DNA of 64,000 bases, taken from contig NZ_JALJXF010000001.1 of assembly GCF_024169925.1 (NCBI RefSeq), positions 4,408,001 to 4,472,000 of the forward strand. Direction: 5' to 3'. The DNA comes from Methylorubrum extorquens (GTDB taxonomy: Bacteria > Pseudomonadota > Alphaproteobacteria > Rhizobiales > Beijerinckiaceae). Shown in pieces: positions 4,953 to 47,342 of this stretch. Each line of letters begins with the position of its first letter. Positions within the stretch are counted from its first letter, which is position 1. Made by a program: the position numbers and the translations under genes. The notes beneath the pieces are model-generated. The model saw only the letters and a list, made by a program, of their open reading frames with translations. It made no database searches and was not told the origin of the DNA.

Positions 4953-6137
4953 ATGTCGACCCGCCAGATCGTGCTTTGCCATCCTGTCCGCACCGCCATC
5001 GGCGGTTACGGCGGCAGCCTCAAGGACGTCGCAGCGACCGAACTCGGCGCGGTCGCGGTCCGTGAGACCCTGCGCCGCGCCGGCCTCGACGCCAGCCGGC
5101 TCGGCAGCGTGACGATGGGCAACGTCGTGCAGGCCGGCAACCGCATGAACCCGGCCCGACAGGCCGCAGTGAACGGCGGTGTGCCCGTTTCCGTGCCGGC
5201 GCTGACCGTCAACCGCGTCTGCGGCTCGGGAGCCCAGGCCATCGCCACGGCGGCCGACGAGATCCGGCTCGGCCATCACGACGTCGCGGTCGCGGGCGGC
5301 ATGGAGAACATGGACCGGGCGCCGTACCTGATGGGGAGTGGGCGCTGGGGTCATCGGATGGGCCACGCCCAGCTCCTCGACAGCATGCTCGCCGACGGCC
5401 TCGTCGATGCCTTCTCGGGCGAGCATTCCGGCTGGCACACCGAGGCCGTGGCCGCCCACTCGGAGATCGGCCGGGAGGCGCAGGACGCCTGGGCGGCCCG
5501 CTCCCAGCAGCGGTTCGAGAGGGCTCGGTCCGCGGGCGCCTTCGACGGGGAGATCGTTCCAGTCGAGATCAAGGGCCGCAGAGGCGTAGAGATCTTCACG
5601 CGCGACGAGGCTCCCCGTCCCGAGACCAACGTCGAGACGCTGGCGAGGCTGAAGCCGGCGTTCCGGAAGGACGGCACCATCACGGCCGGCAACGCGCCGG
5701 GCCTGAACTCGGGCGCTTCCGCGATGATCGTGGCCGAACGGGCCTTCGCGGAAACCAAGGGCCTCGACGCGTTCGGTCGCCTCGTCGCGTACGGCGTCGG
5801 CGCCTGCGAGCCGGGCCTGTTCGGCCTTGGTCCGATACCGGCCGTGCGCCAGGCGCTGGAACGGGCCGGATGGTCGCTCGGCGACCTGGAGCGCGTCGAG
5901 ATCAACGAGGCCTTCGCGGTGGTGCCGCTCGCCGTGGCCAAGGAGCTTGGCCTGCCCGAGGACATCGTCAACGTCGAGGGCGGAGCCATCGCGCACGGCC
6001 ATCCGATCGGGGCGACCGGCGCGGTCCTGACGACCCGCCTGCTCCATTCCATGCGCCGGGACGGCATCCGGCGCGGGCTGGTCACGCTCTGCATCGGCGG
6101 CGGCCAGGGCATCGCCCTCGCCGTCGAGGCCGCCTGA
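4953..6137 (+). CDS. Acetyl-CoA C-acyltransferase (thiolase family)
   Basis: A 394-residue thiolase of normal length. The acylated nucleophile is Cys90 in VNRVCGSGAQAIATAADE. NEAFAVVPLA, GGAIAHGHPIGATGA (active-site His) and LCIGGGQGIALAVE (second catalytic Cys near residue 382) complete the signature. It catalyses condensation or thiolytic cleavage of beta-ketoacyl-CoA. Degradative versus biosynthetic (PhaA-like) use cannot be separated here; the adjacent thioesterase suggests a small acyl-CoA module rather than a PHB operon, since no phaB or phaC is nearby. Confidence 0.93.
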   Translation: MSTRQIVLCHPVRTAIGGYGGSLKDVAATELGAVAVRETLRRAGLDASRLGSVTMGNVVQAGNRMNPARQAAVNGGVPVSVPALTVNRVCGSGAQAIATAADEIRLGHHDVAVAGGMENMDRAPYLMGSGRWGHRMGHAQLLDSMLADGLVDAFSGEHSGWHTEAVAAHSEIGREAQDAWAARSQQRFERARSAGAFDGEIVPVEIKGRRGVEIFTRDEAPRPETNVETLARLKPAFRKDGTITAGNAPGLNSGASAMIVAERAFAETKGLDAFGRLVAYGVGACEPGLFGLGPIPAVRQALERAGWSLGDLERVEINEAFAVVPLAVAKELGLPEDIVNVEGGAIAHGHPIGATGAVLTTRLLHSMRRDGIRRGLVTLCIGGGQGIALAVEAA

Positions 6138-6213
6138 GCCGGAGCGCTCGGCGGGGATCCCGCCGATTCCAGGCGTCTGGGCTCGCAATCCATGACTTCG
6201 TGAGGGTTCCGCC

Positions 6214-7617
6214 ATGGACACACGCACGCGCCGCCTGCTGGAAGCGCCTCTCGTGCCGACCCTGGCCCGGATGGCCGCGCCCAACATTCTGGTGATGGCG
6301 GTCCAGACCTCCGTCGGCCTGATCGAGACGTATTTCGTGTCGATGCTCGGGACCGACGCGTTGGCCGGCATGGCCATCGTCTTCCCGGTGGTGATGCTGG
6401 TCCAGATGCTCTCCGCCGGCGGGATGGGGGGCGCCATCCAGTCGGCGGTCTCCCGCACGCTGGGTGCGGACCGACGGGCGGATGCGGGAATCCTGGCTTG
6501 GCACGCGACGGCGCTCGGCCTGGGGCTCGGCATCGCGACGAGCGTCGTTGCCCTTCCCCTGGGGCCCACTCTCTACGCACTGATGGGTGGGGCCGGAGGC
6601 TCGCTCCGGGCCGCGACCACCTACGCGAGCATCGTTTTGGGCGGGGCAGTCCTGATTTGGCTGTTCAACGCGCTGTCGGCGGTGATCCGCGGCACCGGCA
6701 ACATGGCGCTCCCGGCCATCGTCACCTGCGTCGGGGCCGTCGTGCTGGTGCCGCTCTCGCCCGCGCTGATCTTCGGCTGGGGACCGTTCCCCGAGCTTGG
6801 GGTCGCGGGCGGCGGCGTGGCGTTCGCGGCCTACTACGCCGTGGGGTCCGCGGTCTTCGCCGCCTACATCTGGTCGGGCCGCGGCGTGTTGCGCCCGAGC
6901 CGGCGCTTGCCGAAACTGACCTGGGCCCCGTCCCGGGAGATCCTCCGCATCGGGGTGCTCTCGGGCATCGCCAGCGTGACCTCCAACGTCACGGTCATCG
7001 CCGCCACTGTCTTCGTAGGGGCAGCCGGGCCGGCGGCCGTGGCCGGGTACGGCACCGGTGCGCGGCTGGAATATCTCTTGGTTCCCCTCGTCTTCGGTCT
7101 GGGCTCGCCCATCGCGGCCATCGTCGGTACGGCCTTGGGAGCCGGGGACCATGCCCGCGCCCGTCGGGCAGCCCTGACCGGCGCAGCCGCCGCCGGCGTC
7201 CTGACGGAATGCATCGGGATCGCGGCCGCCCTGCATCCGGTCGCCTGGCTTGGCCTGTTCGGGGACGACCCGGCGATGCTCGACACGGGCTCGCTCTATC
7301 TGCGTGTGGTCGGCCCGTTCTACGGGTTCTTCGGGTTCGGGCTGGCCCTCTACTTCGCAGCCCAGGGCGCGGGTCGCGTCGGCTGGCCGCTCGCTGCCAG
7401 CCTGCTCCGGATGGGGGTGGCGCTGGGCGGAGCCTGGACTGCCTCGGCGCTCGGGTTCGGGTCGGGTGGCACCTTCCTCGCCGTCTCGGCCGGGTTCGTC
7501 GTCATGGGCCTCGTCAACGCAGCGGCCTTCGCGACGGGCCGCATGTTCTCGCGCGATCCCACCGACCTCCCGTCCGTGACGCCCTTGCCCGCCGCGGCTG
7601 CGGTCGCCAGGCGCTGA
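6214..7617 (+). CDS. MATE family efflux transporter
   Basis: A 467-residue polytopic protein with about 12 hydrophobic segments in two similar halves (MAAPNILVMAVQTSVGLIETYFVSMLGTDALAGMA is the conserved first half-repeat start; AAGPAAVAGYGTGARLEYLLVPLVFGLGSPIAAIVG the second). MATE proteins export cationic drugs or metabolites using Na+ or H+ gradients across the inner membrane. The start follows GAGGG upstream. DoxX follows after 27 nt, so the two may be co-transcribed. Confidence 0.92.
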   Translation: MDTRTRRLLEAPLVPTLARMAAPNILVMAVQTSVGLIETYFVSMLGTDALAGMAIVFPVVMLVQMLSAGGMGGAIQSAVSRTLGADRRADAGILAWHATALGLGLGIATSVVALPLGPTLYALMGGAGGSLRAATTYASIVLGGAVLIWLFNALSAVIRGTGNMALPAIVTCVGAVVLVPLSPALIFGWGPFPELGVAGGGVAFAAYYAVGSAVFAAYIWSGRGVLRPSRRLPKLTWAPSREILRIGVLSGIASVTSNVTVIAATVFVGAAGPAAVAGYGTGARLEYLLVPLVFGLGSPIAAIVGTALGAGDHARARRAALTGAAAAGVLTECIGIAAALHPVAWLGLFGDDPAMLDTGSLYLRVVGPFYGFFGFGLALYFAAQGAGRVGWPLAASLLRMGVALGGAWTASALGFGSGGTFLAVSAGFVVMGLVNAAAFATGRMFSRDPTDLPSVTPLPAAAAVARR

Positions 7618-30759: not shown

Positions 30760-30899
30760 ATCCTGGGCTCCACCCGAGAGCGGCTGCCGCGCACCATCCG
30801 CCCTGCCGTCGCACGGCGCGGGCGGGCCTGCGCTTCGGGGCGGGGCGGTGAGGGACGGCTTGGCACGGTTTCTGCCGCTCGGCGGGCGAGGACTGAGCG

Positions 30900-33009: not shown

Positions 33010-34038
33010 ATGAATGGTCTCGGTGGGCTGAACAAATCCCCGAACGGCGTCGTCATCGGCCTCGTCCAGCTTCAATTGCCGACCATCGCCACGCGGGCCG
33101 ACGTGGCCGCGCAGACCGAGCGCATCGTCGCGATGGTCGCCAAGGCGCGCGCCAACATGGCGAGCATGGATCTGGTCGTCTTCCCCGAATACGCCCTGCA
33201 CGGCCTGTCGATGGACACGCGTCCCGAGATCCTGTGCACCCTCGACGGCCCGGAGGTCGCGGCCTTCAAACAGGCCTGCCGCGACAACCGGATCTGGGGC
33301 TGCTTCTCGATCATGGAGGCCAACCCGAACGGCAACCCGTTCAATTCCGGTCTCATCATCGACGAGACCGGCGAACTCAAGCTCTACTATCGCAAGATGC
33401 ACCCCTGGGTACCGGTCGAGCCCTGGGAACCGGGCGATCTCGGCATCCCGGTGATCGAGGGGCCGAAGGGAGCCAAGATCGGCCTCATCATCTGCCACGA
33501 CGGCATGTTCCCGGAGATGGCGCGCGAATGCGCCTACAAGGGCGCCGAGATCATGATCCGCACGGCCGGCTACACCGCGCCGATCCGCGAATCCTGGCGC
33601 TTCACCAACCAGGGAAACGCCTTCTGCAACCTGATGGTGACCGCCAACGTCTGCATGTGCGGCTCGGACGGCACCTTCGACTCGATGGGCGAAGGCATGA
33701 TCGTCAACTTCGACGGCACCATCATCGCCCACGGCACCACCGGCCGCGTCGACGAGATCATCACCGCCGAGGTGCGGCCGGACCTCGTGCGCGAGGCGCG
33801 GGCGCATTGGGGCGTCGAGAACAACATCTACCAGCTCGGTCACCGCGGCTACACGGCGGTGAAGGGCGGCGCGGGGGACTGCCCCTACACCTACATGCAC
33901 GACCTCGCCGCGGGCCGTTACCGCCTGCCGTGGGAGGAGACGGTGAAGGTGACGGACGGCACCTCGTGCGGCTTTCCGGCCCCGACCCGCGCCTATGGCG
34001 AGGGCCAGACGTCGGCGGTTCGGGAGGCGGCGGAGTGA
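33010..34038 (+). CDS. amiF: Formamidase (nitrilase superfamily)
   Basis: A 342-residue nitrilase-fold amidase, the length of AmiF. The catalytic triad is Glu60 ([10 protein letters not shown]), Lys129 (YYRKMHPW) and Cys162 ([15 protein letters not shown]), and EPWEPGD supplies the fourth conserved Glu. It hydrolyses formamide, or a close short-chain amide, to ammonia and the acid. Position inside an ABC import operon and GTGA-coupled to a biuret-hydrolase-like enzyme suggests it releases ammonia from an imported urea- or formamide-like compound. Aliphatic amidase AmiE is the main alternative, as it shares the same triad. Confidence 0.85.
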
Positions 34039-34754
34039 GCGTCATCCCCTTCCCCTCGGCCGAGTCGGCCGGGGGCGGGCGCTTCGTCGCCGCCGAGCCC
34101 TATCCCTGGCCCTACGACGGCTCGCTCGACCCGAAGACCACGGCGCTCGTCATCATCGACATGCAGACCGACTTCTGCGGCAAGGGCGGCTACGTCGATG
34201 CCATGGGCTACGACCTTGCCCTCACCCGCGCGCCGATTGAACCGATCGCGCGGCTTCTCGCCGCCGCGCGGACGGGCGGCTACGCCGTGATCCACACCCG
34301 CGAGGGCCATCGGCCGGATCTCGCGGATCTCCCCGCCAACAAGCGCTGGCGCTCGCGCCGGATCGGGGCGGGCATCGGCGATCCCGGTCCCTGCGGGCGG
34401 GTGCTGGTGCGCGGCGAGCCGGGCTGGGAGATCATCCCCGAGCTGGCGCCGCGTCCAGACGAGCCGGTGATCGACAAGCCGGGCAAGGGCTCGTTTTGCG
34501 CCACCGACCTCGAACTGATCCTGACGACGCGGGGCATCCGCAACCTGATCCTCACCGGCATCACCACGGATGTCTGCGTCCACACCACCATGCGCGAGGC
34601 CAACGACCGCGGCTTCGAATGCGTGATCGTCTCCGACGGCACCGCCGCCACCGATCCCGGCAACCACGAGGCGGCGTTGAAGATGGTGACGATGCAGGGC
34701 GGCGTGTTCGGCGCGGTCGCCGCGTCCGAGGCGATCCTGGCGGCGATGGGCTGA
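34035..34754 (+). CDS. biuH: Biuret amidohydrolase-like cysteine hydrolase
   Basis: A 239-residue isochorismatase-superfamily enzyme starting with GTG that overlaps the formamidase stop by 4 nt. Triad: Asp in [16 protein letters not shown], Lys in DKPGKGSF, Cys in [20 protein letters not shown]. The extended segments [28 protein letters not shown] and [19 protein letters not shown] follow, as I recall them, the Rhizobium leguminosarum biuret amidohydrolase BiuH almost residue for residue, so biuret to allophanate plus ammonia is the best guess. An allophanate hydrolase is not in the window. Confidence 0.8.
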
Positions 34755-38477: not shown

Positions 38478-38745
38478 GCCACGCCAGCGATATCTCGAAT
38501 CGCGGTCGACCAGGAAGGCTGCGCAATCGAACGGCCTCTCTTGAGCGATGAGGGAACTGCCGCCTTCCACGCTCAGCAACCTGTCACATGGTCGATCTGG
38601 TCAGGTTCCGAACCCAGAACCGGTCTGACGCTTCCTGCTCCCGCGGCCCTCCTGGCCCTGGTCTTGCTCTGAAATCCCCTCGGGCGCCCATGCGCGGCGT
38701 CGGCAAGCCGCGGCGGACAACGCCGTCGAAAAGGGGCAGACACTC

Positions 38746-39819
38746 ATGATGGGCAACATCGTCACGCGCGTGGCCGCGGCACTCCTGTGCGCGGCCGTCG
38801 CGGCGGCTCCGGCGCGGGCGGCGGACAAGCTCAAGGTGGGCTTCGTCTATGTCGGCCCGGTCGCCGATTACGGCTATTCCTACCAGCACGATCTGAGCCG
38901 GAAGGCGCTGGCCGAGGCGTTGCCCGGCCAAGTCGAGACGACCTTCCTCGAAAACGTGCCCGAAGCCGACAGCGAGCGCTCGATCGAGAAGCTCGCCCGC
39001 TCGGGCGCCAGCCTGATCTTCACGACCTCCTTCGGCTTCATGGAGCCGACCCTGAAGGTCGCCAGGAAATTCCCCAAGGTGAAGTTCGCCCATGCCACCG
39101 GCTACAAGCGGGCCGACAACGTTTCCACCTACTCGGCCCGCTTCTACGAGGGCCGCTACATCTGCGGGAAGATTGCCGGCAAGCTGTCGAAATCGGGCAC
39201 CGTCGGCTACATCGCCTCCTTTCCGATCCCCGAAGTCGTGAGCGGCATCAACGCCTTCATGCTCGGCGCGCAATCGGTCAACCCGGACATCAAGATCAAG
39301 ATCGTCTGGGTGAACACGTGGTTCGACCCCGGCAAGGAGGCGGAGGCCGCCAAGGCATTGCTGGCGCAGGGCGCCGACATCCTGACCCAGCACACCGATT
39401 CCGCCGCGCCGCTTCAGGAAGCGGAGAAGGCCGGCAAGCTCGCCTTCGGCCAATCCTCCGACCAGTACCGCTTCGCCCCGAAGGCGCAGCTCACCTCGAT
39501 CGTCGACGATTGGAACGGCTACGTCATCGCGGAGGCCAAGGCCGTTCTCGATGGCACCTGGAAGAGCGGGGACACCTGGGCCGGCATCAAGGACGGCATG
39601 GTCGTGCTGGCACCCTTCACCAACATGCCCGACGACGTGAAGGCGCTGGCCGAGGAGACGAAAAAAGGGATCGTCGAGGGCAGGATCCACCCGTTCCAGG
39701 GGCCGGTGCTCAAGCAGGACGGCTCGGTCGCGGTAAAGGAGGGCGAGCACGCCCCCGATCCGATGATCCTCGGCATGAATTGGTACGTGAAGGGGATCGA
39801 CGACCGGCTGACGCAGTAG
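38746..39819 (+). CDS. BMP-family ABC substrate-binding protein, probably for system 2
   Basis: A 357-residue exported protein. The Sec signal ends at AAPARAAD, then the BMP domain KLKVGFVYVGPVADYGYSYQHDLSRKALAEAL with LIFTTSFGFMEPTLKVARKFPKVKFAHATGYK and GFMLGAQS-like segments. It lacks a Tat motif, unlike the paralogue at 29572. System 2 (30900-36324) has no binding protein of its own, so this separated gene is the natural partner. AAAAGGGG upstream is a possible ribosome-binding site. A strong bidirectional terminator follows. Confidence 0.86.
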   Translation: MMGNIVTRVAAALLCAAVAAAPARAADKLKVGFVYVGPVADYGYSYQHDLSRKALAEALPGQVETTFLENVPEADSERSIEKLARSGASLIFTTSFGFMEPTLKVARKFPKVKFAHATGYKRADNVSTYSARFYEGRYICGKIAGKLSKSGTVGYIASFPIPEVVSGINAFMLGAQSVNPDIKIKIVWVNTWFDPGKEAEAAKALLAQGADILTQHTDSAAPLQEAEKAGKLAFGQSSDQYRFAPKAQLTSIVDDWNGYVIAEAKAVLDGTWKSGDTWAGIKDGMVVLAPFTNMPDDVKALAEETKKGIVEGRIHPFQGPVLKQDGSVAVKEGEHAPDPMILGMNWYVKGIDDRLTQ

Positions 39820-39839
39820 GGGTGGGCACCCCGGAAATG

Positions 39840-39871
39840 GAGGCGCCGCCGGAGCGATCCGGCGGCGCCTC
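39840..39871. terminator. Bidirectional terminator between convergent genes
   Basis: Perfect 13-bp stem GAGGCGCCGCCGG / CCGGCGGCGCCTC with a 6-nt loop, between the BMP gene stop (39819) and the stop of the convergent small secreted protein (39890). A short T-run follows on the + strand. Confidence 0.75.
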
Positions 39872-39889
39872 TTCGCGTTTCGATGCCGG

Positions 39890-40159
39890 TCAGGGACGTG
39901 GCGGGGGCGGCAGGCGGCGCTCTCCGGCCGGGTGCGGGGCGGTCTCCACCGGCACGCCTGTGCCGGGCGCTGCCGGGATCGCCTCGCCCGAACGGAACGC
40001 CTCCCGCTCGTTCGGGAGGGCCGCCGCTCCCTCCGTGCCGCCTGGCGCGGTCGCCCCTGGGCTGCCGGCCGGGGCGCCGGTCGACCCTTGGGCCAAGGCC
40101 GCACCGCCCAGGCCCGCGAGGACGCTCAGAGCGAGCGTGGCTGTCGTGATGAGACGCAT
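39890..40159 (-). CDS. Small secreted TAPGG-motif protein 1
   Basis: An 89-residue protein. The signal peptide is MRLITTATLALSVLAGLGGAALAQ, followed by GAPAGSPGATAPGG and a low-complexity Pro/Ala/Gly-rich tail ending RRLPPPPRP. The 14-residue motif aligns without gaps to three other small secreted proteins at 40231, 41235 and 41894. Start chosen for the signal peptide; longer upstream in-frame extensions would spoil it. Function unknown. Confidence 0.62.
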   Translation of the reverse strand: MRLITTATLALSVLAGLGGAALAQGSTGAPAGSPGATAPGGTEGAAALPNEREAFRSGEAIPAAPGTGVPVETAPHPAGERRLPPPPRP

Positions 40160-40230
40160 GGGACGGACTTTCCGGTTGCGGAGAAGAGGGCGCGCGATGT
40201 CGCCGGGCGGCAGGGATCCTGGCTTGCGTC

Positions 40231-40437
40231 TCACCGATGACGCTTCCGGTGCGAACGGGCGGCCTTGCCGCGCCGTCCGCCCGGAGCGGTGACGCGCGAT
40301 TGGCCGGCCGGCGGCGTCACCGTGCCCTGCGCACGGGCGCCGGGAGCCGTGGCGACGCCGCTGCCGAGGCAGAAGGCTGCGACGAACCAAGCGAGGAGAG
40401 GTAGGCTGAGGCCGAGAAAGGCCCGTTTCGCGCGCAT
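40231..40437 (-). CDS. Small secreted TAPGG-motif protein 2
   Basis: A 68-residue protein with a GGGAG ribosome-binding site before ATG 40437, a hydrophobic signal (LGLSLPLLAWFVAAFCLGSG ending near GARAQ), the motif TPPAGQSRVTAPGG and a strongly basic tail (KAARSHRKRHR). It lies 71 nt upstream of protein 1 on the same strand. The basic tail suggests binding to an acidic polymer or surface; that is speculation. Confidence 0.58.
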   Translation of the reverse strand: MRAKRAFLGLSLPLLAWFVAAFCLGSGVATAPGARAQGTVTPPAGQSRVTAPGGRRGKAARSHRKRHR

Positions 40438-40658
40438 CGTCGAGGCTCCCGTCGGGCCGTGCCGGCCACCGTTTGCACGGCTGGCTTCAGCAAGGGCCGT
40501 GCCGCCGGGACCGATCGAACGGCTCGCCCGAGCACCGGCAGCAGTTGCCGCAACGGTCGCTCGGTGCCGTTGCGGAAGGCGCACCCGATCCCCTGCGCCT
40601 GCATCGCCGCGGTCGCCCCCCGTCTCCGGATTGAGGGCGGCAGCAAAGGTAAAGAATG

Positions 40659-40674
40659 CGTTTCACGTGAAACA
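40659..40674. other. parS-like ParB-binding site
   Basis: CGTTTCACGTGAAACA matches the universal chromosomal parS consensus TGTTTCACGTGAAACA at 15 of 16 positions, with the complete 14-bp palindrome GTTTCACGTGAAAC intact. It is intergenic. ParB sites mark the origin-proximal centromere region of bacterial chromosomes and are also found on chromids and plasmids. No parA, parB or obvious oriC is in the window. Confidence 0.65.
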
Positions 40675-40719
40675 AGCCGCTCAGGTCGCAGCGTCGATGG
40701 GCGTGAAGGTCCGCGCCTT

Positions 40720-40872
40720 TCACGGGTTCATCGGGCCGACGGGATCGATGAGTCGCTCGAAGCCGAGTTGGTCGGTCTCTGCCCGCTTGTGCCGGGGGCC
40801 GTCCTCCAGCGTGTCGATATGTGGGTTGGCGCACGAGACGCCGCGCGCCTCGTGCGTCTCGACAATGGGGGT
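40720..40872 (-). pseudogene. Possible 3' remnant of a coding gene
   Basis: A 50-codon open frame without start codon, bounded upstream by a stop, reads like the end of a real protein: VETHEARGVSCANPHIDTLE, RAETDQLGFERLIDPVGPMN, stop. Its residue mix is more protein-like than neighbouring frames, which are Arg/Pro-rich. Not recognised; it may be a decayed fragment. Confidence 0.3.
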
Positions 40873-41234
40873 TTAGCCCGTCGCGACGCATCTGCTGCCC
40901 TACGACGCCCTGACCGATGAGGCCGCCGCGCCCTCGTAGACGGGCGCGGGAAGCGGGGATTGGTGCGCAACAGCACTCGCGGAGAAAGAGGCGTGCCAGA
41001 AGACGCACTCTGTCAAAAAAATCTGCAATCTCATGCTAACACTCAGTCGAAACTGGTCTTTTCGGGCGAGATCGACCAAACGGCGTTGAGCCTTCATCTC
41101 GGCTGTGCCGTATCTATGTGCACAAGCCCAAAGCAGTTCATGTTGTTTTACAAGGCATCGGTGCTCAGTTTGTGGGACATGCGACGTCGCTTGGTCTGAT
41201 CGCGACGCCGAAACCAATCTCGGAGATTGACGAC

Positions 41235-41483
41235 ATGATCTCACGCATCGTTGCAGGCGCGGCCCTTACCCTCGCCCTCACCACCGCCGCCTCGGCCCAG
41301 AGCTACAACGCCCCGGCCGGCATCCCCGCCGTCACCGCTCCGGGCGGCCTCGTCGGCATCGCCGGTCCGGGCAATGTCGAGCGCTACCTGGACCGTGACG
41401 GCCGCCACGGCACCGTGTCCGTCGATGGCGTCTACACCACCGGCTCCACTGTCCGGGGCACCCACACCGTTCGCGGGCGCTGA
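41235..41483 (+). CDS. Small secreted TAPGG-motif protein 3
   Basis: An 82-residue protein: signal peptide MISRIVAGAALTLALTTAAS-AQ, then SYNAPAGIPAVTAPGG, GNVERYLDRDGRHGTVSVDG and a basic end (GTHTVRGR). Bases 41274-41355 are 80/82 identical to 41930-42011 in protein 4, so the two arose by recent duplication, or are held alike by conversion. Upstream sequence is AT-richer than average. Function unknown. Confidence 0.7.
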   Translation: MISRIVAGAALTLALTTAASAQSYNAPAGIPAVTAPGGLVGIAGPGNVERYLDRDGRHGTVSVDGVYTTGSTVRGTHTVRGR

Positions 41484-41485
41484 TC

Positions 41486-41514
41486 CGGTTTCCGCTTGAT
41501 CCAAGCGGGGACCG
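41486..41514 (+). terminator. Hairpin after small secreted protein 3
   Basis: CGGTTTCCGCTTG / CAAGCGGGGACCG with a 3-nt loop (two G-U pairs), starting 2 nt after the stop codon. Probable terminator. Confidence 0.5.
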
Positions 41515-41584
41515 TATCGCTCAGCCCACGCGGCGCCTGAGGAGAGTCCCCATCGCGCCAGCGCGAGGGGATCCCGCCGAGGCC

Positions 41585-41619
41585 CAAATCCGTCATCCCG
41601 AAGGGATCAACCGGATTTG
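41585..41619. repeat. Nested intergenic palindrome
   Basis: Outer arms CAAATCCG / CGGATTTG enclose an inner ATCCC-GAA-GGGAT hairpin. It lies in a roughly 410-nt gap (41484-41893) with no supported gene, and resembles a dispersed intergenic repeat. Confidence 0.45.
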
Positions 41620-41893
41620 GCATGACGCATCCGGATGGTCCGACAACCGCCGTTTCAAGGGTCCGAAGGGCTGGCCGCGCATTACCGCAGCCGGCCCTTT
41701 TCCATGGAATCCAGGCCAGGGCACGAACGGGCCCTGCCTCATGCCGGCCGGAAGCTCATCTCCAGCTTTTCGACTTTCTCGAACGTTTCGTTCGATCTTA
41801 TTCCAGTTTTCGGAAAGCTCGTGCAGGTCCATCTTCGCTTCATCAGATGACGGACGAACCGGCCGTCACCGCCGCCCATTGATGGAGTGTCCC

Positions 41894-42124
41894 ATGTCCC
41901 GCATCTTCGCCGCTTCCGTCCTCGCCCTTGCCCTCACCACCGCCGCCTCGGCCCAGAGCTACAACGCCCCGGCCGGCATCCCCACCGTCACCGCCCCGGG
42001 CGGCCTCGTCGACGATGTCGGCGGCGTGCAGCGCCCGACGGTGCGCGACACCCGCCTCGGAACCCTGCCGGCGGACGCCAACCTGACCACCGGCTCGGTG
42101 GGGCGGACGCATCACGCGCGCTGA
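41894..42124 (+). CDS. Small secreted TAPGG-motif protein 4
   Basis: A 76-residue protein: signal MSRIFAASVLALALTTAAS-AQ, then SYNAPAGIPTVTAPGG and a variable tail ending GSVGRTHHAR. ATG 41894 is preferred over 41882 because GGAG at 41884-41887 is correctly spaced for it. The N-terminal half is nearly identical to protein 3, while the C-terminal halves differ completely apart from a basic end. Confidence 0.7.
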   Translation: MSRIFAASVLALALTTAASAQSYNAPAGIPTVTAPGGLVDDVGGVQRPTVRDTRLGTLPADANLTTGSVGRTHHAR

Positions 42125-42150
42125 CGGTCCCAAAATCCGCGCGCATCCCG

Positions 42151-42178
42151 AAGCCGGCCCTCGCGAGGGGGCCGGCTT
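42151..42178 (+). terminator. Rho-independent terminator after protein 4
   Basis: 10-bp stem AAGCCGGCCC / GGGCCGGCTT with an 8-nt loop, followed by TCGGTCGTTTT, 26 nt downstream of the stop. Confidence 0.7.
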
Positions 42179-42260
42179 TCGGTCGTTTTCGGCTGCGGCT
42201 TCGCGCTTGCTTGTCGGGTGTTCTCGCCGCGGCGGGAGGCCGGGTTGGGGGCATAAGCGC

Positions 42261-43184
42261 ATGCAGGGACCGGGGACGCCGACACTCGACCAGCTCCGGG
42301 TGTTCCTCACCGTGGTCGAGACCGGCAGCTTCGCCGCGGCCGGGCGCCGTCTCAACCGCGCGACTTCGGTCATCAGCTACGCGATCGCCAATCTGGAGCT
42401 TCAGCTCGGTCTGCCGCTGTTCGATCGCGAGGCGACGCGCCGGCCCCAGCTCACCGAAGGCGGCCGGGCCGTGCTGGCGGAGGCCCGCACCGTCGCCCAC
42501 GGCATCGACACGCTGCGAGCCAAGGTGAGCGGCCTGCTCGGCGGTCTCGAAGCCGAACTCGGCTTCGTGTCGAGCGTGCTGATGCCCGGCGCCCGGCTCG
42601 TCGATGCGCTCACCGCGTTCCAGGTAGCCTTCCCGACCGTGTCCTTGCGCCTCAACGTCGAGGCGCTCGGGGCAGCCCAGCAACTCGTCACGGATGGCCG
42701 GGCCGATCTCGGGATCACCGTGGAACTGTGGACCCGCGACAGCGATCCGCTCGAACTGATCTCCGTGGGCGAGGTCGAGATGCTGCCCGTCGCTGCGCCG
42801 AACCATCCGCTTGCCGGGGCGGCCGGCCTGATGCCGGGGGCGGCGCGCGATCATGTCCAGCTCGTCATCACCGACCGCTCGCCGCTGTCGCAGGATCAGG
42901 AATTCGGGGTGGTCGCCAACCGCACATGGCGGCTGTCGGACCTCAGCACCAAGCACACGCTGCTGCTCGCCGGAATCGGATGGGGCAGCATGCCCGCGCA
43001 CATGGTCGAGGCGGACATCGCCGCCGGCCGCCTCGTCGAGCTGGATCTACCCGACGTCCGGCGCCGCCGGCTGCCGCTCACGGTGATCTACCGCACCGGC
43101 CATCCCCCGGGACCGGCCGGGCGCTGGCTGATCCGCCGCTTCGTCGAGCAGGCGGAGCGCGAGGCCGCGGCGCGGGCGGCCTGA
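42261..43184 (+). CDS. LysR family transcriptional regulator
   Basis: A 307-residue LTTR: HTH in residues 8-67 (PTLDQLRVFLTVVETGSFAAAGRRLNRATSVISYAIANLELQLG) and an effector-binding domain. It is convergent with the guanine deaminase (stops 13 nt apart), so it does not share a promoter with it, but may still control the purine oxidation genes. Effector unknown. Confidence 0.87.
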   Translation: MQGPGTPTLDQLRVFLTVVETGSFAAAGRRLNRATSVISYAIANLELQLGLPLFDREATRRPQLTEGGRAVLAEARTVAHGIDTLRAKVSGLLGGLEAELGFVSSVLMPGARLVDALTAFQVAFPTVSLRLNVEALGAAQQLVTDGRADLGITVELWTRDSDPLELISVGEVEMLPVAAPNHPLAGAAGLMPGAARDHVQLVITDRSPLSQDQEFGVVANRTWRLSDLSTKHTLLLAGIGWGSMPAHMVEADIAAGRLVELDLPDVRRRRLPLTVIYRTGHPPGPAGRWLIRRFVEQAEREAAARAA

Positions 43185-43197
43185 CGAGCGAAGAGGT

Positions 43198-44571
43198 TCA
43201 GGCGCCCGAGCGGACCGCCCCATCCGTCGCCGGATAGACCAGCGGGTCACCCGCGCGCCGGTTGTCGTAGACGGCCTCGCCCGCGATCCAGGTCGCGCGC
43301 ACCGTGCGGTGGTCGCCGAGCGTCATCAGCACGAACAGCAACTCCTCGATGCTGGAGCAGGTGCCGGTGCGAAAGCCCAGGAGCGGCGTCGCGGCGAGGT
43401 CGAGGACGCAGAGATCCGCATCGTGCCCCGGCGCGATCCGCCCGATCCGGTCGTCCAACCGCAGCGCTTCGGCGCCGCCGAGCGTCGCGAGCCAGAACGC
43501 CCGGACCGCGTCGAGCCGGGTGCCGCGCAACGCGGCGACCTTGTAGGACTCGCCGAGCGTCTTCAGCAGCGACAGGGTGGTGCCGGCGCCGACATCGGTG
43601 CCGAGCCCGACCCGCACCGGGCGGCGCGGATCGAGGGCGTCGAACAGCCGGAACAGGCCGCTGCCGAGGAAGCCGTTCGAGGTCGGGCAATGGGCGATCG
43701 CCGCGCCGCTGGCGTGGCAGGTGCAGAAATCCTCCTCCGAGAGGTGGATCGCATGGCCGAGCACCGTGCGCGGGCCGACGAGGCCGGACTGCACGTAGAC
43801 GTCGAGATAGCTCGCCCGGTCGGGGAACAGCTCGCGCACCCAGGCGATCTCGTCAGTGTTCTCGCACAGATGGGTCTGGAGGAAGAGGTCGTCGTGCTCC
43901 CGCATCAAGGTGCCGGCGGCATCGAGCTGGGCCTGCGTGCAGGAGGGGGCAAAGCGCGGCGTGACGCAGTAATGCTGGCGCCCGCGCCCGTGCCAGCGGG
44001 CGATCAGGGCCCGGCTCTCGTCGTAACCCCGCTGCGCCGTGTCGAGGAGCCCGGCCGGGGCGTTGCGGTCCATCAGGACCTTGCCGGCGATCATCCGGGT
44101 GTTGAAGCGGGCCGATTCAGCGAAGAACGCCTCGACCGAGCCGGGATGGACCGTGCAGTAGACCACCGCCGTGGTGGTGCCCGCGCCCAGGATCTCGCGG
44201 AAGAACAGCTTGGCCACCCGCTCGGCATGGGCCTGATCCGCGAACTGCAACTCGGCGGGGAAGGTGTATTTCTCGAGCCAGGCCAGCAGCTGCTCGCCGT
44301 AGGAGGCGATCATCTGCAGCTGCGGATAATGGACGTGGGTATCGATCAGGCCGGGCAGGATCAGGGCGTTCTCGTAGGTCGTGACCGCGACGCCCGCCGG
44401 GATGCGGTCCGACAGGTCGGAAAAGTCGCCGAAGGCGGTGATACGCCCGTCCTCGATCAGGATCAGGGCATCGGCCACGTGCTGGAGACAGCCCTCGCTC
44501 AGGAAGGGGTTGCCGGTCAGGCTCACCGCCTGTCCGCGGATCGCCCGCATCCGGGCCGGTGCCGCCGTCAT
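43198..44571 (-). CDS. guaD: Guanine deaminase
   Basis: A 457-residue amidohydrolase of normal GuaD length. Metal ligands: PGLIDTHVHYPQ, QTHLCENTDEI, GHAIHLSEED and LGTDVGAGTTLSLLKT; the SYGEQLLAWLEKYTFPAE segment is the guanine-specific signature. It converts guanine to xanthine and ammonia. The ATG overlaps the stop of the molybdenum hydroxylase by 4 nt, so xanthine production and oxidation are co-translated. Start chosen at that overlap; the longer upstream frame is a shadow of the preceding gene. Confidence 0.93.
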   Translation of the reverse strand: MTAAPARMRAIRGQAVSLTGNPFLSEGCLQHVADALILIEDGRITAFGDFSDLSDRIPAGVAVTTYENALILPGLIDTHVHYPQLQMIASYGEQLLAWLEKYTFPAELQFADQAHAERVAKLFFREILGAGTTTAVVYCTVHPGSVEAFFAESARFNTRMIAGKVLMDRNAPAGLLDTAQRGYDESRALIARWHGRGRQHYCVTPRFAPSCTQAQLDAAGTLMREHDDLFLQTHLCENTDEIAWVRELFPDRASYLDVYVQSGLVGPRTVLGHAIHLSEEDFCTCHASGAAIAHCPTSNGFLGSGLFRLFDALDPRRPVRVGLGTDVGAGTTLSLLKTLGESYKVAALRGTRLDAVRAFWLATLGGAEALRLDDRIGRIAPGHDADLCVLDLAATPLLGFRTGTCSSIEELLFVLMTLGDHRTVRATWIAGEAVYDNRRAGDPLVYPATDGAVRSGA

Positions 44572-47342
44572 GCGTCTTCGGTCTCCCGTTCCGCATCCTC
44601 CGTTGCCGCCATGACCTGTCGGAAAATTCGGTCGGGGGCGAACGGCGTCGCGGTCAGCCGCACGCCGGTAGCGTCGCGGATCGCGTTGCCCAGGGCGGCG
44701 GCGACGGGGTTGTAGGGGGCCTCGCTCATCGATTTGGCGCCCAGCGGCCCGACCGTGTCGTGGGTGTCGGCGAACAGAACCTCGGTCACCGGAACGTCTG
44801 CCATCGCCGGGATGTGGTAGTTGCGCAAGGTCCGCGTGACGACCGCGCCCGCCGCGTCGAAGCGATAGTCCTCGTAGAGGGCCGCGCCGAGCGCCTGCGC
44901 CACCCCGCCCTCGATCTGCCCGCGGCACTGCATCGGGTTGATGACCCGGCCGGCATCCGCCGCCTGGACGCTTCTGAGAATGCGGATCTCGCCGGTCTGC
45001 GGATGCACCGCCACGCGAAAGGCCTGGACGTTGAAGGCGACCGAGCGCGGCGTCCCGTCCGCCTCCCCCGCGGCCTCAAAAGCGGCGCCTTGCGCGAGGG
45101 TGGTGAGGGCGATGCGGCCGGCGGGTGTCTCGACGCCGTCGGGCGTCAGGCGGCAATCGGCCGGGGCGACGCCGGCCCGCTCGGCGGCGGCCGTGCGAAG
45201 CCGATCTGCAAGCGCCGTGGCCGCGCGGAAATTCGCTTGGCCCGCGACCACGGTGCCCGTGCTGCCGTAGGCACCGGTATCGTGCCGGACGGCGTCGGTG
45301 TCGGCCTGGGTCAGGCGGATGCGTTCGGGCGTGGTGCCGAGCACCTCGGCGGCGATCTGCCCGTGCACGGTGCTGGTGCCGTTGCCGAACTCGGCGGTGC
45401 CGACCGCAAGGGCATAGGTTCCGTCCGGCTCGAGGCGGATGCGGGCATGGGCGACGTGGCCACGCGGCGGAATCGTGTCGATCATGGCCATCGCCATGCC
45501 CTCGCCGACGCGCCAGTCCGGTCCCGGCACCGCCTCGCCGCCGCCGTCCGCCAGGGCGGCCTGGACGCGGTCGAGACACTGGTCGAGGCCGTAGGAGCCG
45601 TAGACGACGTCGTGCGGCTCCAGGCTCGTCGATACCATCGGGTCGCCGGGCCGCACCGCGTTGAGGCGGCGCATCGCGAACGGGTCGATGCCAAGATCGC
45701 GGGCGAGTTCGTCCAGCGCCGATTCCACGGCAAAGATGGTCTGGCTCAGGCCGTACCCGCGAAAGGCCCCGGACGGCAGGGTGTGGGTGTAGGCGGCGTA
45801 GCCCTCCACCCGCTTGTTCGGACAGGCATAGGCGGCGATGCTCTCGTTGCAGCCGTGGTGCAGCACGCCGCCGGCATGGTTGCCGTAGGCGCCGGTGTTC
45901 GAGAGCACGTTCAGCGAGAGCGCGGTGAGACGCCCGTCGGCCCGCGCGCCGACCTTGACCCGCACCCGCATCGGATGGCGCGTCGTCGCCGCGCAAAAGT
46001 TCTCCTCGCGGGTCATCTCGTAGGAGACCGGGCGACCGGTCCGCAGCACGGCGAGCGCCACGAGATCCTCGGTCAGCATCTCCTGCTTGCCGCCGAAGCC
46101 GCCGCCGACCCGGCCGCAGAGCACGCGCACCCGGTCCCGGTCGAGATCGAACAGGCGGCACAGGGCATCGCGGGTCAGGAAGGGCACCTGCGTCGAGGAG
46201 CGCAGGGTCAGCCGGCCCTCAGCGTCGAGCCAGCCGAGCGCGCCGTGCGTTTCGAGATGCACGTGCTGCACCCGCTGCGAGACGTACTCCGCCTCGTGGA
46301 TCAGGTCAGCTTGGCCAAAGCCCGCCTCGACATCGCCGATCGCCCCGTGCGCCTCGGCGGCGAGGTTCGGGTGCGCGAGGAGCGGCGGCGCATCGTCGCC
46401 GGGCCGCGGCGGGTCGCGGTCGGCCGGATCGTGAACGAGGGGCGCGTCCGGGCGCAAAGCCGCCTCCGGGTCGAAGACGGCGGGCCGCACGTCGTACGCC
46501 ACCCGCAGCGCCCGCACGCCCATGGCGGCCGCCGCCGCACTCTCGGCGACCACCGCCGCGACACGCTGGCCGTGGAATCGGATCACGGAATCGAGCACGC
46601 CCGTGTCGGCGGCGTCGTCCAGGGGGTTCTCGTGCCGCCCGGTCGAGAAGCGGCGGCGCGGCGCGTCCTCGTGGGTGAGCACCGCGACCACGCCGGGCAC
46701 CGCCAGCGCCGCCGTCCGGTCGATGCTGCGGATACGGGCATGGGCGTGGGGGGCGCGCAGCACCTTCAGGTGCAGCAGGCCCGGCACGGCGGTGTCGAAG
46801 GTGTAGGCGGCCCGGCCGGAGACGAGGGCGCGGCTCACCGGAGCCGGAAGGGAGCGGCCGACCGGGCCGACCGCGCTGCCCGCATCGACATGCGCGAGGC
46901 CGGCCACGGCGTCACGGATCGCCCGGTAGCCGGTGCAGCGGCAGAGATTGCCCTTGAGCGCGGTGCCGAGATCCTGCCGCTGGCCCTGGTCGAGGGCAGC
47001 CGCCGTCATGATCATGCCCGGCGTGCAGAAGCCGCACTGGAAGCCCTGTGCATCGCAGAACGCGTCCTGCATCGGGTGGAGGTGCTCGGGCGGCCCGTCG
47101 CCCGGCGCGCAGGGGCCGGCGAGGCCTTCGATCGTGGTGATGCCACGCCCCTCCGCCTGGAAGGCGGGCAGAAGGCAGGAATGGACCGGCTCGCCGTCGA
47201 GATGGACGGTGCAGGCCCCGCAATCGCCCGCATCGCAGCCCTTCTTGACCCCGAACCAGCCGAGATCCCGCAGCAGCGTGCGCAGGCACTGGCCGGGACG
47301 CGGCGCGGCTTTCTGGACCTGCCCGTTGACGGTGAGCCTCAT
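44568..47342 (-). CDS. xdhD: XdhD-type xanthine/hypoxanthine oxidase, fused [2Fe-2S] and molybdopterin subunits
   Basis: A 924-residue fusion. Residues 1-150 form the ferredoxin-like [2Fe-2S] part with Cys36/41/44/56 and the second cluster Cys103/106/134/136. Residues about 165-924 form the molybdopterin-binding part (GRVGGGFGGKQE, GAFRGYGLSQ, and the SMSEAPYNP region where the catalytic Glu lies near the C-terminus). This layout is that of E. coli XdhD (956 aa), not the separate XdhA/B/C form. The FAD subunit is encoded just upstream with a 4-nt overlap and guaD just downstream. Product is likely urate from xanthine or hypoxanthine. No XdhC-type insertion factor is in the window. Confidence 0.88.
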   Translation of the reverse strand: MRLTVNGQVQKAAPRPGQCLRTLLRDLGWFGVKKGCDAGDCGACTVHLDGEPVHSCLLPAFQAEGRGITTIEGLAGPCAPGDGPPEHLHPMQDAFCDAQGFQCGFCTPGMIMTAAALDQGQRQDLGTALKGNLCRCTGYRAIRDAVAGLAHVDAGSAVGPVGRSLPAPVSRALVSGRAAYTFDTAVPGLLHLKVLRAPHAHARIRSIDRTAALAVPGVVAVLTHEDAPRRRFSTGRHENPLDDAADTGVLDSVIRFHGQRVAAVVAESAAAAAMGVRALRVAYDVRPAVFDPEAALRPDAPLVHDPADRDPPRPGDDAPPLLAHPNLAAEAHGAIGDVEAGFGQADLIHEAEYVSQRVQHVHLETHGALGWLDAEGRLTLRSSTQVPFLTRDALCRLFDLDRDRVRVLCGRVGGGFGGKQEMLTEDLVALAVLRTGRPVSYEMTREENFCAATTRHPMRVRVKVGARADGRLTALSLNVLSNTGAYGNHAGGVLHHGCNESIAAYACPNKRVEGYAAYTHTLPSGAFRGYGLSQTIFAVESALDELARDLGIDPFAMRRLNAVRPGDPMVSTSLEPHDVVYGSYGLDQCLDRVQAALADGGGEAVPGPDWRVGEGMAMAMIDTIPPRGHVAHARIRLEPDGTYALAVGTAEFGNGTSTVHGQIAAEVLGTTPERIRLTQADTDAVRHDTGAYGSTGTVVAGQANFRAATALADRLRTAAAERAGVAPADCRLTPDGVETPAGRIALTTLAQGAAFEAAGEADGTPRSVAFNVQAFRVAVHPQTGEIRILRSVQAADAGRVINPMQCRGQIEGGVAQALGAALYEDYRFDAAGAVVTRTLRNYHIPAMADVPVTEVLFADTHDTVGPLGAKSMSEAPYNPVAAALGNAIRDATGVRLTATPFAPDRIFRQVMAATEDAERETEDA

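Follow-up and report, generated by a model that had tools for sequence, protein, structure and literature searches.

What are the four tiny genes that lie close together, two on each strand, in a 64,000-nucleotide stretch of the Methylorubrum extorquens genome, and do they belong to one family? A preliminary description of this stretch (the window) had noticed that the four open reading frames (ORFs), here called A, B, C1 and C2 (Table 1), each code for a signal peptide followed by a motif of 14 residues, and had proposed a family of secreted microproteins. The frames were borne out at the lengths given, and cleavage-site and profile comparisons support a secreted family with a common N-terminal segment. 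These PAG-TAPGG exported microproteins are an undescribed family, absent from all libraries searched. Comparisons between genomes also demonstrate selection on the genes, their range at the sensitivity used, and their genomic context; the purine context and the regulatory elements were absent from the preliminary description and are new here.

The common segment and the tails

The 14-residue motif is present in all four proteins, but the common segment extends further. Its full form, with which the predicted mature protein begins, is Q[S/T]..[A/P]P[A/S]Gx4T[A/Q]PGGxxGxA. Distinct relatives (n = 105) were sorted by simple tail patterns into types A (31), B (20), C (42) and D (12); conservation of the sorting letters (TEG for A, GRR or GLR for B, TGS-like for C, GN and SGG for D) follows by construction, and type C took in a few D-like proteins. 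The segment P[AS]Gx4T[AQ]PGG is common to all types. Deviations do occur: PGS replaces PGG in six of the 12 D proteins, and TAPGG is altered in some D and a few C members. A variant, A' (TVLAPSGDSAVTQPGGTEGRA), in which TQPGG replaces TAPGG, was found in five of seven weaker matches inspected, and B variants with PGG in place of PAG, missed by the regular expression, are visible upstream of A in some loci. The similarity runs beyond the double glycine, with Ala at position 16 in 30/30 A-type and 33/42 C-type proteins and Asn at position 20 in 30/30 and 28/42, respectively. Glu 21 and Gly 28 are likewise invariant in type A (n = 30, the protein at L055 6004 excluded), which also has the stretch NExEAIRSGDAI.

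The tails had been described as unrelated. This does not hold within types, as A, B, C and D each keep a tail of their own. Those of A and B reappear throughout the genus, and C1 and C2 have TTGS in common. The C-terminus of B is a run of Arg, Lys and His, and the mean net charge of B is +9.3 (20 proteins). A protein encoded at 6004-6228 of locus L055, in the position of B, combines an A-like core with a B-like basic tail and therefore links A and B. C1 and C2 are a recognisable duplicate pair with a common stretch of 118 nucleotides at 87 percent identity; gene conversion between them as the source of the common core was unsupported in 10 genomes (permutation 0.17, within-clade 0.58). Three proteins (P0003, P0005 and P0010) carry the signal peptide of one C paralogue and the tail of the other, and are recombinants or assembly chimeras via the common core. 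In a metagenome protein (P0020), which is perhaps an assembly chimera, a C2-type tail is fused to an aminomethyltransferase fragment. The D type (L068 and most of L071-L087) is found in other loci with a conserved upstream sequence of its own, and its tail ends in YGxTSGG.

Selection, range and predicted export

A six-frame scan of the window and 57 fetched loci (1,103,662 bases) with [PS][AT]Gx3-5[TA]APG gave 108 matches, of which 107 sort into the family types and one is a stray. The motif is more than a chance occurrence; since the loci were chosen for holding relatives, the scan measures specificity and not density. On the source genome, a family profile gave the four proteins E values of 8e-25 to 3e-15, which follow by construction because the profile includes them; the absence of others does not, and no fifth clear member was found with it (next match E = 0.001). 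Single-sequence searches at E 0.01, weak cross-matches included, matched 52 of 59 genus genomes with A and 35 of 59 with B, and the family profile at E 1e-5 matched 44 of 59.

The four frames look like real genes under purifying selection. Omega, which sets non-synonymous against synonymous change, was estimated against four or five relatives per gene, with small site numbers. For whole genes it was below 1 in 17/17 comparisons, ranging between 0.12 and 0.49 for A, 0.08 and 0.39 for B and 0.50 and 0.82 for C2 (four comparisons each), and between 0.28 and 0.62 for C1. The core gave 0.19 or less in 15 of the 17 (the exceptions being A against L038, 0.60, and C2 against L031, 0.52), and that of C1 was without amino-acid change in five of five. 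Values for signal peptides reached 1.61. The "diversifying tails" proposed earlier were found in C2 only, where the tail is fast (0.46, 0.83, 1.14 and 1.55); those of A and B are constrained (0 to 0.35), and that of C1 mostly so (0.18 to 0.38, with a single value of 0.86).

At the sensitivity used, the searches show the family to be confined to Methylobacterium and Methylorubrum. The 57 loci from the genome scan all come from records of these genera, except one bin named Beijerinckiaceae, and the closest named relatives of C1 are Methylorubrum. At E 0.001 the profile reached eight of 149 genomes of the taxonomic family; six belong to the genus, and the matches in the other two, at 9e-4, are by eye different proteins. 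In 249 genomes of the order, the best match outside the genus had an E value of 1.6e-4 (17 genomes at this value or weaker). At most 37 and 22 candidates per genome, respectively, were scored in these two scans. When 5.8 billion proteins were searched with a profile, 7991 candidates were scored and 410 passed at E 0.1. The best 120 of these 410 had no Pfam domain; where a name was given, it was that of a hypothetical protein from Methylobacterium, Methylorubrum or a Methylobacteriaceae strain, with two exceptions, one labelled Parafilimonas and one carrying the automatic name "IF-2". For 18 members there was no match in Pfam at E 0.1 or in PADLOC at E 0.01; the window four had none in Pfam at E 1 or above cut-off in NCBIfam, and the PDB held none for the family. 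No published name for the family was found in a literature search limited to titles and the openings of abstracts.

Export of these proteins is a supported prediction. Judged from the sequence and not by a predictor, the cleavage site is AxA/Q (the stroke marking the cut) in 100 of the 105 distinct relatives, the window four included, VxA/Q in three and PxA/Q in two. A Sec-type signal peptide ending in [AV]xA/Q, with the common segment starting there, was thus found in 103 of 105, and the motif lies five or six residues past the Q in all types. The mature chains contain no Cys (0/105), and the average share of hydrophobic residues is 12-19 percent, depending on the type. An AlphaFold2 model of C1 had no confident fold (pLDDT 54.5, pTM 0.19), and the four window proteins are probably disordered.

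Regulatory elements and neighbouring genes

Control of B by sigma-54 is a supported prediction. The motif GGC[AC][CT]-N5-[TC]TGC was found in its loose form before 19 of 20 B genes and in a strict form (TTGC[AT]) before 12 of 20. It lies 55-78 nucleotides before the start, or 104 in L041, where the start was probably set too late. The GG at -24 and GC at -12 are conserved at fixed spacing above the background elsewhere in the loci, which is 0.002 (strict) and 0.023 (loose) per 200 nucleotides with the B sites excluded; the regular expression follows the standard consensus and was drawn up with the sites already in view, and the loci include close relatives. The source genome has an rpoN gene. 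Among 12 A genes in loci where the regular expression found no B, three near-identical ones have GGCCAAAGACTTGC 72 nucleotides upstream. A sigma-54-like sequence, TGGCAC-N5-CTGC, precedes a transporter permease in 8 of the 12 loci inspected. It lies 39-69 nucleotides before a permease gene of the BMP1 cluster (30861-30876 in the window), and further loci with it are L044, L045, L050, L051, L054, L056, L065 and L066. A candidate before BMP2 (TGGCCCTGGTCTTGCT, window 38653) was ambiguous and was left uncounted, as it appears to fall inside the end of the permease frame in relatives with perm2 upstream; strict matches before BMP2 were also seen in 12 relatives' loci.

Table 1. Features of the four-gene locus, with positions in the window
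Feature	Position	Strand	Remarks
Gene A	39890-40159	-	89 amino acids; signal peptide, mature chain QGSTGAPAGSPGATAPGGTEG...NEREAFRSGEAI...PPPPRP
A, mature start and common segment Q24-G41 (predicted)	40037-40090	-	
Gene B	40231-40437	-	68 amino acids; signal peptide, mature chain of 32 amino acids QGTVTPPAGQSRVTAPGGRRGKAARSHRKRHR, strongly basic
B, mature start and common segment Q37-G54 (predicted)	40276-40329	-	
Sigma-54 (-24/-12) promoter motif	40489-40504	-	CGGCACGGCCCTTGCT; 66 nucleotides before B start
Promoter-like block of C1	41096-41181	+	ATGTGCACA, TGTTG, GGCATCGGTGCTCAGTTT
Gene C1	41235-41483	+	82 amino acids; signal peptide, mature chain QSYNAPAGIPAVTAPGGLVGIAG...TTGSTVRG...
C1, mature start and common segment Q22-G38 (predicted)	41298-41348	+	
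Palindrome	41779-41795	+	TCGAACG-TTT-CGTTCGA; 115 nucleotides before C2 start; sole copy in window
C2 5' hairpin	41826-41907	+	CTTCATC pairs with GATGGAG (Shine-Dalgarno), CAT with the ATG start codon
Gene C2	41894-42124	+	76 amino acids; signal peptide, mature chain QSYNAPAGIPTVTAPGGLVDDVG...LTTGSVGRTHHAR
C2, mature start and common segment Q21-G37 (predicted)	41954-42004	+	
Terminator-like stem and T run, 3' of C2	42151-42189	+	judged by eye
Formamidase	33010-34038	+	589 bits, NCBIfam cut-off 406
Biuret amidohydrolase BiuH	34065-34754	+	422 bits, NCBIfam cut-off 370
BMP2, BMP/PnrA-type ABC substrate-binding protein	38746-39819	+	convergent with A
Perfect inverted repeat, 14 bp, between BMP2 and A	39840-39871		terminator-like
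LysR regulator	42264-43184	+	
Guanine deaminase	43198-44574	-	568 bits, cut-off 375
Presumed xanthine dehydrogenase genes	beyond guanine deaminase		named from ORFs

The two C genes have upstream elements of another kind. Of 43 C records (C2-type and D-like included), 25 have a block TGTTG-N12-22-TGCNCA at 88-107 nucleotides upstream of the start, by a pattern that was set after reading the upstream sequences. The idea that C1 is the first gene of the BMP1 operon is disfavoured, with terminator-like stems seen by eye after C1 in three or four of six loci. Before C2-type genes, the palindrome TCGAACGTTTCGTTCGA or a near form lies at 98-115 nucleotides in 10 of 12 and nowhere else in the loci; in L032 and L066, the two others of the 12 aligned, it is degenerate and was missed by the pattern.

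A leader hairpin over the ribosome site of C2 is a supported prediction, and it is possibly an undescribed leader element. In relatives, CTCCATC or CTTCATC pairs with the GATGGAG ribosome site, and L050, which has a GTG start, has CAC as its partner. Eight of 12 relatives have only Watson-Crick pairs in the 7-bp Shine-Dalgarno stem. Minimum-energy folds have the Shine-Dalgarno sequence fully paired with either upstream arm in 9 of 12; five or six bases pair with (T)CCATC in L038 and L066, and in L033 the site is unpaired with such an arm. In the stem alignment, 96.3 percent of cells are paired, against 21-43 percent when it is slid. As in a riboregulator, the ribosome site is predicted to pair with an arm upstream of it, and the structure is conserved, with two weak points: two pairs are changed on both sides, a number reached by 23 of 500 shuffles, and the fold energy has z below -2 in 4 of 12 (window z = -0.43). 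A model of the hairpin gave 14 matches in 11 of 59 genomes, namely 11 before C2-type genes, two before versions of 41-46 amino acids and one before a degenerate frame. The model thus marks no wider regulon at those filters. Rfam had no match above gathering score at window 38500-42600, where three sub-threshold matches were unconvincing. Extra C2 leaders were seen at L131 (G024:C4:170066), L130 (G032:C6:329634) and L132 (G032:C9:50954); the L131 copy keeps the stem with other letters (CTGTCAT with ATGACAG), and the 41-46-residue proteins behind two extra leaders keep QSYT[AS]PAG and have no TAPGG.

The purine and urate nitrogen-scavenging context of the family is strong but not obligatory. The window locus contains two BMP/PnrA binding proteins, permeases and an ATPase, together with formamidase, biuret amidohydrolase and guanine deaminase. 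Context was examined in 40 named loci (L031-L070), which are related, so that the counts are not independent. Where an A gene is present, uraD-hiuH adjoins A/B on the same strand in 22 of 29 loci, and BMP2 is convergent with A in 20 of 29. A C gene is the next marked gene after uricase in 18 of 25 loci with uricase, and 13 of the 17 loci with both B and a C gene have the uraD-hiuH fusion, xanthine permease and urate oxidase between the two (in L039, each of the three scores above an NCBIfam cut-off). This uricase is present in 37 of the 44 family-bearing genomes, with a member within 6 kb in 21 of the 37 by hand count. BMP2 at 75 percent identity at least was found in 27 of 59 genomes, all 27 of them family-bearing. 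Among eight stretches around weaker or single members, one has a C gene beside BMP2, and in two a remote homologue of xanthine dehydrogenase is found some 2 and 5 kb from the member. In L137 and L139, at distances of about 2 and 5 kb respectively, A' members are near such homologues (52-53 percent identity), which may extend the purine link to that branch.

Possible roles and known systems

The reading preferred here, tentatively and at somewhat less than an even chance, is that these are disordered, nitrogen-linked accessory proteins of the periplasm that dock through a segment common to their mature N-termini. The proteins would remain in the periplasm or on the cell surface and would be produced when nitrogen is short or purines are present. 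RpoN would switch on B, and probably A behind it, and C2 would be made once its hairpin opens. The common segment (QSxxAPAGxxxxTAPGGxxGxA), for which we infer the anchor or recognition role suggested earlier, would dock onto one common envelope partner, and the tail, whether basic, Pro-rich or TTGS, would bring a second ligand or surface to it. The effect would be to help the cell to take up or handle purines and related nitrogen compounds. The docking partner and the job are the least certain parts of this proposal. A bolder form of it appears rather doubtful to us: a dedicated, undescribed extracytoplasmic microprotein system for purine and urate scavenging, with a docking tag, interchangeable tails, RpoN control of B-A and an RNA switch for C2, which would act on poorly soluble purines or on BMP-type binding proteins.

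Several observations weigh against the nitrogen-linked reading. A shallow alignment also yields a poor AlphaFold2 model. The strict sigma-54 pattern used for B was found before 0/31 A, 0/42 C and 0/12 D genes (0, 2 and 0 in the loose form), and sites with up to two mismatches are unenriched across the whole window (24 against 18.2). A match to this uricase is absent in the source genome and in six others of the 44 family-bearing genomes, which shows that the genes do not depend on it; 17 of 32 genomes without a close BMP2 also have a member, and neither gene is therefore required. No marker gene was seen in five of the eight stretches around weaker or single members, and the first 18 marker proteins were absent in 13 D-bearing loci (uricase, uraD-hiuH and xanthine permease being outside that test). 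The common location may reflect history, and shared ancestry inflates the counts.

The persistence of the genes without this uricase and without BMP2, the stretches and D loci that show no marker gene, and the palindrome and hairpin that C2 has for its own and that are missing before the other genes suit an alternative which is nearly as likely as the nitrogen-linked reading: lineage-specific small envelope proteins with a general (stress) function, gathered in the long gaps of the locus. The purine context would then merely follow from a single ancient insertion that the genus inherited. Against it speak the sigma-54 motif before B, which points to nitrogen control, and the slots that A/B and C1 hold beside urate and purine genes in many species. 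The conserved segment followed by differing tails, and the very basic chain of B, could also suggest precursor peptides, in which a pro-region ending in PGG behind the signal peptide is cut to release a type-specific signal or antimicrobial peptide (from B, a polybasic one of 14 residues). This is improbable, as the similarity continues past the double glycine at positions 16 and 20, and the supposed cut site is PGS in half of the D proteins and TQPGG in A'; moreover, neither the ORFs read nor the marked genes include a recognisable dedicated protease or exporter, though no search was aimed at either. That only C1 and C2 are related, and that A and B resemble them by chance, is very improbable indeed. 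The motif is short and of low complexity, in Pro/Gly/Ala-rich sequence of a high-GC genome, and a search with A reaches C1 of the source genome weakly (E 0.008), but the motif follows the Q at five or six residues in all types, L055 has an intermediate, and all types are conserved across the genus. With the joint profile, which contains the four, each of them has an E value of 3e-15 or better.

Methylobacterium is abundant on leaves, where nitrogen may come from purines and ureides. If the nitrogen-linked reading is true, clade-specific exported microproteins tied to a purine pathway, under a promoter of the nitrogen type and a translational switch, would give a testable function to a class of small proteins now called hypothetical and mostly left without explanation, and the common mature N-terminus is a concrete handle for a partner search.

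Compared with known systems, C1 and C2 reach the PRK13244 "protease inhibitor protein" (NF009717) at E 0.037-0.038, which is read as chance with 14.2 bits against a cut-off of 292. Double-glycine bacteriocins have a GG leader without a Sec signal and a C39-peptidase exporter; unlike them, all types of this family have a signal peptide with a signal peptidase I-type site, and no such exporter was recognised among the ORFs read, in the course of which no dedicated search was made. The predicted C2 hairpin covers the ribosome site and start codon, as do Shine-Dalgarno-sequestering leaders such as the alphaproteobacterial ROSE RNA thermometers; it differs in a stem that is fully Watson-Crick in most relatives and in having no Rfam match above gathering score at the locus. 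Like nitrogen-regulated RpoN promoters, the predicted promoter of B has GGC[AC][CT]-N5-[TC]TGC with variable spacer letters. DUF680 and DUF4148 are small exported Pfam families of fewer than about 100 amino acids, with lineage-specific copies; the window family, itself without a Pfam match, is like them in its signal peptide, size, paralogues and narrow range.

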